A stretch of 64,000 bases of DNA from Colius striatus. Lineage: Eukaryota; Chordata; Aves; Coliiformes; Coliidae. A program made the translations under genes and the position numbers. Position 1 is the stretch's first letter, and the number at the start of each line of letters is the position of its first letter. The notes below the pieces were generated by a model that searched no databases, was not told the DNA's origin, and worked only from the letters and a program-made list of their open reading frames with translations. The DNA is taken from positions 33,882,664 through 33,946,663 of the forward strand of contig NC_084768.1 of NCBI RefSeq assembly GCF_028858725.1, read 5' to 3'. Below are positions 31,501 through 35,525 of the stretch, piece after piece.

Positions 31501-31699
31501 TCAGGAGGTCCAGCGCCACCAGGCCACCTTGGCCCTGTCCCAGACGGCTGAGAGCGAGTCGAGCGCGGGGCGCACGTCCAGCACGGTGAACTGGTAGTTC
31601 TGATCCACGGCCCCACCGTCATAGTAGTCGATAACGTAGCGCACCTCCCTCCCGCAGCGGTCCACGATCCAGTCGTGCCTGTCGAAGGGCAGCTCATAG
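31501..31699 (-). CDS. HCCS: HCCS-like coding exon 6 (terminal)
   Basis: Acceptor TTGTCCGCAG. It encodes [20 protein letters not shown] through the C-terminal WWRWTS and a TGA at 31503-31501. It is noticeably more G+C-rich than the inner exons. Confidence 0.95.
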
Positions 31700-34600
31700 C
31701 TGCGGACAACAGAGCAGGCACACACTAATGAGTGCTACGAACCTGGGAGAGGTGCAGAGTCCTACTTACGAAGGTCTGCTTATCCAGCCACGGGCACAAG
31801 ATCCCCACCAGTACTTCTACCTTCTGGTAACTGGAACTTACCATTCCGAAACATCTGAAACTGAATTGCACACCCTGCTTCCAGACCCGTGCCCTCCCAC
31901 CTCGCCGGCAGCCCTTCCCTCCTGCCACATACCCCATCCACGAGCGTATCCTGGCTCTGGGTGAATACTCCTTGGCTTTGCCCCCAAACCGCATCAGTGA
32001 CGGGCCACACGGACATTCCCTGGGCACACAATTAATAAAACAAATTAGTTTTTACCTTTCAAACCAGTCCTAAGCGTTTGAACCACTACGGTCATTTGTT
32101 TTAGGAAACAGAACAGGAGAAAGAGCAACAGCCAAAAGCTAATTCCGAGTGGTCTAAACCAGCTGCTTTCCAAGTTGGAAAAGTCCTGCAGTTTCTAGTG
32201 GCACTTTCTGCAGGTGTGATAAAGGACCTTTGATATGCTCCACACCATTGTTCTAACTTATCAACAGAGCAGTTCCCAGCAAGTCTAATCCACAGACTGA
32301 ATAAAGAACAGAAATCACCCTTCAAACTGCAGCACAACAAAGACCATGGCATTCCAGAGAACAGTTTCTACAGATGGAGGCTAGACTGACCTAAAAAGTG
32401 ACACTTTGTTTCACACCACTCACTTGTAATCTAAGTTTACATCTCCATATCTTTTTTGTAAGATAAAAGATCTCAATTAAATGATTTCCAAATAGAACTA
32501 ACGTCTCCATACACACGCCACCAAAATGCTCATTTTAGCAACACTGTAATTACTCAGTTCCAGTAAGCTCTCCTCTATAATCTTTCTCCACAGTAATCAC
32601 AACACAGGATCCTACAAGACCATAGCACCAGAGAGCAGAATGTTTCTGCAAAAACTAAGAGACAATTCTCCTTTCAAAGACTTCCAAGAACACGAGCAGA
32701 GCCAAAGGATCTGCTCTTCATTTCTTAAGCACATACCCAGCGTGAAGAGCTTCCCACTTCAAGATCTCCTTCCAAGCCTGTTCATTATTTTGGTTGTGAA
32801 TTTTAATGATGTTGGTCATGTCTTCACCTGTTATGTCATCATCTTTCCACCTCCACCTAAAAAACAACGATTTGAAAACCATGACAAGCATTACAGCACA
32901 ACTACTCCACCTTCCTCAGTTTATCTGATGAGCTTTTGAATCAAGAGGTTGAAGGTTTTATACAAAGGCACCAAGCAGGTACAGAAACTTGTCTCCTCTG
33001 CTTAAGCATCCTGAGAATCGCTTCATTTTCTTGGTAACATGTAGTTACCACAGTCATCATCACAGAGATGCACAAATTCCGGGCAGCCACACACCCGGGG
33101 AGAATCCCACGGACGCTCCTTGGGCACGGGGTCCTGCAGGCACCCTGCAATGCCCCTCACCCCTCTGCCCCTGCACCATGGACACTCACCCGCTTCGCTT
33201 CCTTTTCAAGGAGCAAAGCATCCAACACACTCAAGTGTCCCAGCATCAAAGCGTCCAACACCCAGTACTTAGACAAGCTGTCCTATGAACAACATTGACA
33301 AAGAACTACTGCTGTTTTAACTCTTAACTACCTTTAAAGCTGATTTGTTTAAGAATGACAAAAAAAATGATGACTGGAGAATGAGGAAACAGCAGCACAG
33401 GAAGCTTTTCAGGCCACAGGAGCATTTATCAGTCAGTTGGCTCTTGCCCATACCCAGTTCTTGTAAAGACTGAAAACATCTACTTGTCAAATAATTGTCA
33501 CAGTTTTAGCAGTTCTGCAAAGTCAAGGCAGCCGTTCCCACAATCACAGAACTCTGGCTGTCGTTTGCAGGATCAGCATGAAGCCTATGTAAGGCTCACA
33601 GCTGGCAATCCTTTGTTTGTCCAGTTTGTCCAGGCTCATGCACGGGGGTTTTAACAAAAACATTCTGAGCTGGTGGCAGTTGCCTGGCACTCCCCACCAC
33701 CCTGCCCAGCAGCAGAGATGACACAGGGCCTTTGAGACCAACTCACCCTTTAAAATAAAGCTATTTATAAACCCAGCAATTTTTCAAAGAGCTAGTTATT
33801 ATTTACTGTTTAGAGTCCACAAACTCTCAAATGACATCAATGAACAACAACTAACAATGTCACTTCATGACTTTCAGGCTCACAGACTCCACCTGACAAT
33901 CCAGGGTGTACTCACCCTTTTCTCAGCATAGCATTCCAGAACATTTGCTCTGAAGGGTAGACCCATTTCTTGTCAGAACGTGCTCTAGGAATGGAAGATT
34001 CTTCTCTAACAGTTGAGAGTGGAAATGGCTGATCTGGGGATGGCTGCTGATTGGGAGGAGGCATCTAGAAAACAGGGAAAAGCAACAACAAACTGGAGAA
34101 TGGAGATGTTTTTAAATGTAAACAGTGTCTAAGAAAGAAAATAAAAACCAAAGCATAATCAAACAGCTGCTACAAAGTTCATGAAGTTTAGCCTTTCTGT
34201 GAGTCCATCAAAACTACCTCCCTCTTCTGCAGCAGAACTGTTTGCACAAGTTTGACAGCTGAAGACTAAAGGAACCCTTGGGCCTAAAGCTCAGCTTTGG
34301 AAAGAGCTTTCTGTAAATCTGCAGAGAGATCCGAATCAGAACTTATCCACAGTTCCATCACACAGAATCTCAGCCCACTAATGTATGGTAAAAACCACGT
34401 GTGTAACTAACAAACAGAAACAGTAGACAAGACAAAAAGATCTGAATTTGAAGATGAGAACTTTAAGTAAGATGGAACTTGTTTTTGTAGAAACACTTGC
34501 ACACAAAAATGAAGAAAAGCGGTGTTAGAAACTGAAAAATAATGTTATTTTCCAGAGTCCCCACCTATCACTATTTACATTTTGGGGATGGCATTTCAGG

Positions 34601-35525
34601 AGAAATGAGACTGAAGAAAAGGTCTGAACTAAGCGCAAGTTACCATGTTGCTGGGGTCTATGTCATCTCCCACTTGAGATGCACCAGAAGTCACTGGACA
34701 CGCTACAAATTCATATGCCCTTTCCTGATGCGCAGGAACATCGTCTGCGTTCTCAGCTCTGCCATCAGGAGTCTTCCTGTGCATTGGGCAACCTGAAATA
34801 CAGGAAAAAAACAGTGCACACTTTGCTACAAGATGAAAACCCTAGGCCATGACGTGACAGGAAAGGGACAGCACTTCACTGAATGCTCATGTAAACACAG
34901 ACTGGTATTTCACTTTTTCTTCTAAGCTTTGGAGCAGTTTTAACTGTTCCCTTTGCTGCATTTTAGGACACGGCACTGTGACACTATCTAGGCTTCTTCA
35001 GTAGTCCTCAAATGCCCATTTCCCACCCCATGTTGCTCCCTAGACTGAGCTGCTTGTACTCAAGATTTCCACAGCAATGTTTATCTAACGTGTTGACTAA
35101 CATCTTCCCTCTCCAGACATTCATCTCACACCACCCCTCTGCTGCCCTCTTCCAGATGCATGCTCTCCAGCAACGACCTCCTGCCCCAGGCACCATCTTC
35201 ATGGGGGCCCCTGCAACCCTCTGACCCTCTGAGGTGTGAGGGGACGGAGCTGCAGGGCAACGGGGAGCGACCCACAGGCCCTACAGCAAGCACCTGCGTG
35301 GTGTTTGAGTCAACAACTGACTTCACGGGGCGTTACTTGAGAGCATCAAGTCTTTATTTGTAGAACCGTTTGTTTGGGGCTCCCCCATCCCAATAGTATT
35401 CGGTGGTTTCCCCGCGAGAAGCGTCCTCCACGCAAGTCCCCAGAGCAATTACCGCGCCTCGTCTCCTGGTGCATGGGGCACTGTGCGGGCGGAGCGGCGG
35501 CCGGGGCGGACGCGGACAGCCCCAT
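31501..35525 (-). CDS. HCCS: Holocytochrome c synthase (cytochrome c haem lyase), complete, 6 coding exons
   Basis: HCCS attaches haem covalently to the CXXCH motif of cytochromes c and c1 at the mitochondrial inner membrane, facing the intermembrane space. Coding exons on the minus strand are 35525-35453, 34792-34644, 34064-33916, 32856-32737, 32019-31933 and 31699-31501, giving 777 nt (258 aa; human 268 aa). The start MGLSASAPA matches the human start. Cys-Pro haem-binding motifs occur at residues 16-18 (CPM), 26-28 (CPM) and 56-58 (CPV). The catalytic-region histidine corresponding to human His154 is His144 in [31 protein letters not shown] and the C-terminal [22 protein letters not shown] and VAWWRWTS are near-identical to human HCCS. 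All introns are GT-AG, so it is not a retrocopy. Its place between TLCD4 and RWDD3 is unlike human, where HCCS is X-linked; it may be a paralogue. Confidence 0.95.
31933..32019 (-). CDS. HCCS: HCCS-like coding exon 5
   Basis: Acceptor TGTGCCCAG and donor ATGGG|GTATGTGG. It encodes [20 protein letters not shown] and RARIRSWMG. Confidence 0.95.
32737..32856 (-). CDS. HCCS: HCCS-like coding exon 4
   Basis: Acceptor GTTTTTTAG and donor GCTGG|GTATGTG. It encodes [20 protein letters not shown] and the haem-ligand histidine region. Confidence 0.94.
33916..34064 (-). CDS. HCCS: HCCS-like coding exon 3
   Basis: Acceptor GTTTTCTAG and donor AAAAGG|GTGAGT. It encodes [14 protein letters not shown] and [19 protein letters not shown] through the start of the catalytic domain. 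Confidence 0.94.
34644..34792 (-). CDS. HCCS: HCCS-like coding exon 2
   Basis: Acceptor TATTTCAG and donor AACATG|GTAACT. It encodes the second and third Cys-Pro motifs and [16 protein letters not shown]. It is the least conserved exon, as expected for this N-terminal region. Confidence 0.92.
35453..35525 (-). CDS. HCCS: HCCS-like coding exon 1
   Basis: Encodes residues 1-24 and the first base of Gly25, including the first CPM motif. The donor reads GGCGCG|GTAATT. An in-frame upstream ATG exists 17 codons earlier, but the conserved MGLS start in good context (GGGGCCATGG) is preferred. GCTCCAG at 35565-35559 may be an acceptor from a noncoding first exon. Confidence 0.9.

Follow-up and report, generated by a model that had tools for sequence, protein, structure and literature searches.

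In a 64,000-nucleotide stretch of the Colius striatus genome (C12:33882664-33946663; the whole of this stretch is called the window below), we located a gene for holocytochrome c synthase (HCCS) between TLCD4 and RWDD3. Very probably, this is the single-copy nuclear HCCS of a bird in what is likely its normal avian position, its neighbours differing from those in mammals through the move of an intron-bearing segment, and no extra paralogue is involved.

Structure and surroundings of the HCCS gene

The window contains an intact HCCS gene on the minus strand (Table 1). Its six coding exons join into a reading frame of 777 nt, encoding 258 amino acids followed by a stop codon, and all five introns are of the GT-AG type. 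Judging from its sequence, the gene looks functional. The initial annotation had described an intact, full-length HCCS of six exons lying between TLCD4 and RWDD3 with all three on one strand, and our exon model, the Pfam search and the matches to the flanking genes agree with that description. The GC-rich, CpG-island-like stretch at the 5′ end of the gene is presumed to be its promoter, and the AATAAA hexamer is presumed to be its polyadenylation signal.

Table 1. Positions in the window of the HCCS coding exons, the associated signals and the flanking genes
Feature	Position	Strand	Remarks
HCCS, intact gene	31501-35525	-	six coding exons
HCCS coding exon 1	35453-35525	-	ATG starts at 35525; exon match from protein search
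HCCS coding exon 2	34644-34792	-	splice model and exon match
HCCS coding exon 3	33916-34064	-	splice model and exon match
HCCS coding exon 4	32737-32856	-	carries His144, the equivalent of the human heme-ligand His154
HCCS coding exon 5	31933-32019	-	splice model and exon match
HCCS coding exon 6	31501-31699	-	includes the stop codon; splice model and exon match
CpG-island-like GC-rich stretch, HCCS 5′ end	35400-36350	.	GC 0.78, CpG observed/expected 1.12
AATAAA hexamer	31308-31313	-	5′ end at 31313
RWDD3, downstream of HCCS	18199-24845	-	human probe and RWD domain
TLCD4 (TMEM56), upstream of HCCS	45236-57763	-	human probe and TLC domain

Two repeat structures accompany the gene. Directly upstream of HCCS and within the CpG-island-like stretch, positions 35994-36143 hold GC-rich tandem repeats of the CCGCCCCG type. 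Approximately 210 bp beyond the polyadenylation hexamer, positions 31053-31099 form an inverted repeat whose two 23-bp arms match perfectly across a spacer of 1 nt. Because a genome search allowing up to two mismatches found its 23-bp arm only at its own two places, the inverted repeat is not a common repeat element.

HCCS, RWDD3 and TLCD4 share one orientation, with all three on the minus strand. RWDD3 was matched by a human probe at 24759-24845, 19234-19719, 18405-18524 and 18199-18312. The human probe for TLCD4 gave six matched pieces, from 57620-57763 to 45236-45553, of which the piece at 48229-48456 is weak (40% identity) and one hits a stop at its edge, as expected of a match that overruns an exon. 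The extents given in Table 1 for the two flanking genes are the spans of these matches, and the outer ends of the first and last TLCD4 exons are approximate. Searches of the window for RNA families and tRNAs found none. Elsewhere in the window, two adjoining tandem arrays occupy 2100-2733, the first built of six copies of a GC-rich 36-bp unit (2100-2317) and the second a long polypurine array of the GGAGAGA type (2415-2733), and five tandem copies of a 31-bp unit lie at 11111-11272.

Protein family and heme site

The encoded protein belongs to PF01265, the cytochrome c/c1 heme lyase family, whose profile it matches over nearly its full length (positions 20-296 of 299; E 1.2e-64; score 219.1 bits, cut-off 23.8 bits). 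A search against PDB sequences returned no match at E 0.001. An alignment with human HCCS shows identity at 196 of 268 positions (73%), and at 139 of 161 within residues 98-258. The human protein has 268 amino acids compared with 258 here, with gaps near the N-terminus, and its gene lies at Xp22.2 in another neighbourhood than that of the window HCCS.

The catalytic histidine had been proposed to be conserved, and His144 indeed aligns with His154 of the human sequence, the residue that passages of PMC11727520 identify as the axial heme ligand. The same passages name 13 side chains closest to heme in a modelled structure of human HCCS, and all 13 are identical in the window HCCS. The bird and human proteins share both a family and this set of heme-contacting residues. 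Among 26 checked residues drawn from these passages, 24 are the same. One mismatch falls at position 149, where the human sequence used for comparison also departs from the published one, and the other replaces human Met259 with Ala. With all 13 listed heme contacts kept, the expected activity is heme attachment to cytochromes c and c1, and passages of PMC7918533 state that a single heme lyase suffices for both cytochromes in higher eukaryotes. The enzyme would act on the outer side of the inner mitochondrial membrane, where it would bind heme via one axial histidine, here His144, and join the two heme vinyls to the CXXCH cysteines of apocytochrome c and c1.

The mammal-type site and the number of HCCS copies

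In human, HCCS lies between MID1 and ARHGAP6, and MID1, ARHGAP6 and MSL3 have the order and orientations that they also have on contig C1 of Colius striatus. On C1, a MID1 exon lies at 75026399-75026518 on the minus strand (95% identical to the human probe along 44 residues), ARHGAP6 exons lie at 75398268-75403135 on the minus strand, and MSL3 lies at 75772882-75788130 on the plus strand. ARHGAP6 was reached by scoring 150 of 268 RhoGAP candidates, after which the ARHGAP6 probe identified the locus. A second COS-domain match, on C15, has 70-84% identity to the MID1 probe and is presumably MID2; two further MRG-domain matches besides MSL3, both on C9, are presumably MORF4L1; and reverse-transcriptase-like reading frames near MSL3 are what we take to be CR1 elements.

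The genome-wide protein search gave no HCCS match at the MID1/ARHGAP6/MSL3 block. From MID1 (75.03 Mb) to ARHGAP6 (75.40 Mb), coverage came from this genome-wide search, with a local search added over 10 kb at ARHGAP6. HCCS and the three genes thus do not share a neighbourhood, the former lying on C12 and the latter on C1. The absence of MID1, ARHGAP6 and MSL3 beside HCCS counts against a shared position, not against orthology. Both flanking blocks, TLCD4/RWDD3 and MID1/ARHGAP6/MSL3, are present in the Colius striatus genome, and we found no mark of a departure or an arrival of HCCS.

A different history could produce such an arrangement. Had early vertebrates carried two HCCS copies, with birds keeping the one on the TLCD4/RWDD3 side and mammals the one on the MID1/ARHGAP6 side, reciprocal loss would look no different: HCCS would have other neighbours here than in human, and both flanking blocks would still be present. 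Zebrafish gene names include hccsa.2 and hccsb. The name hccsa.1, which occurs in PMC10605426 and PMC5812986, itself suggests that zebrafish is annotated with more than one HCCS, and these copies may be old or may stem from the teleost duplication. Against such a history, a search for an HCCS relic in the 200 kb around and upstream of MSL3 (C1:75.60-75.80 Mb) yielded nothing better than E 1.1. The identity of HCCS residues 98-258 to the human protein is also high and within the range of other genes of this genome compared with human probes (pieces of RWDD3, 52-88%; of TLCD4, 40-65%; of ARHGAP6, 75-97%), although this is weak evidence. We consider reciprocal loss improbable; if it were true, the human disease gene HCCS and the bird HCCS at TLCD4-RWDD3 would be ancient paralogues rather than orthologues.

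The number of HCCS copies was assessed across the assembly of 1,212,370,026 bases in 191 contigs, with exon-by-exon searches in which the first look passed 4 candidates (Pfam) and 15 candidates (protein), all of which were scored. The PF01265 profile gave three matches, all within the window HCCS. With the window HCCS protein as the query, nine matches were obtained at E <= 10; six correspond to the gene's own exons, and the remaining three came with E values of 1.86 (C3), 4.85 and 7.74 (C7). It is unlikely that the assembly contains another intact copy; a decayed HCCS relic could escape such searches, and the assembly may omit sequence. Within these limits, the window gene is the sole HCCS, as would be expected of an orthologue of the mammalian X-linked gene.

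These results bear directly on two readings offered in the initial annotation. According to the first, the window gene is an extra paralogue, with another HCCS of the X type elsewhere in this genome. Only its unusual position relative to human speaks for this, and the genome searches, which yielded the gene's own exons and three matches with E above 1, give no second HCCS, leaving this reading with scarcely any probability. Near ARHGAP6 and MSL3, where a second copy might have been sought, no HCCS match was obtained. The initial annotation had named a sole HCCS as part of what would count against an extra paralogue, and, as far as the searches reach, this is what the genome shows. The other reading, a relocated sole copy, fits what was found, namely one HCCS, with MID1, ARHGAP6 and MSL3 on another contig without it. 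The introns had also been held to speak against a retrocopy; all five were confirmed, and on their account we rejected that candidate, while a misplacement of the gene by an assembly join is opposed by a window free of any N and by the assignment of chicken HCCS to chromosome 8 in passages of a 2008 report (PMC2542379), so that these two origins, in favour of which we found nothing, are taken together extremely improbable.

Chicken HCCS and the probable avian position of the gene

The passages of that report (Sire et al. 2008, PMC2542379) give the chicken HCCS as LOC424482 and place ARHGAP6, MID1 and MSL3L1 close together on chromosome 1, with MID1 and MSL3L1 inverted relative to human; they name no neighbours of HCCS on chromosome 8. 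In chicken and Colius striatus alike, HCCS is separated from the ARHGAP6/MID1/MSL3 block, which occupies chromosome 1 in the former and lies on C1 in the latter. The two differ in the inversion reported for chicken; in Colius striatus, the three genes have the human order and orientation. The split of HCCS from its mammalian neighbours is already known for a bird, and because of what these passages of the 2008 report contain, the separation that we observed between HCCS and the ARHGAP6 block is to be regarded as known. Passages of two other papers (PMC6592930 and PMC4596860) mention chicken HCCS without a position. A literature search made chiefly under TMEM56 and RWDD3 found, in the portions of papers that it returned, none that names TLCD4/TMEM56 and RWDD3 as neighbours of HCCS, and a literature search for the position of HCCS in fish, frog, reptile and monotreme found no paper.

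Returning to the single-copy reading, we infer from single-copy parsimony and sequence similarity that the window HCCS and mammalian HCCS are orthologous. The different neighbours in mammals would have arisen by one move of an intron-carrying DNA segment, which may have taken place in either one of the two amniote lineages, and the site between TLCD4 and RWDD3 is probably the normal position of HCCS in birds. Our analysis is mainly a correction: the location of HCCS looks odd only against the human map, and in a bird it seems to be nothing unusual.
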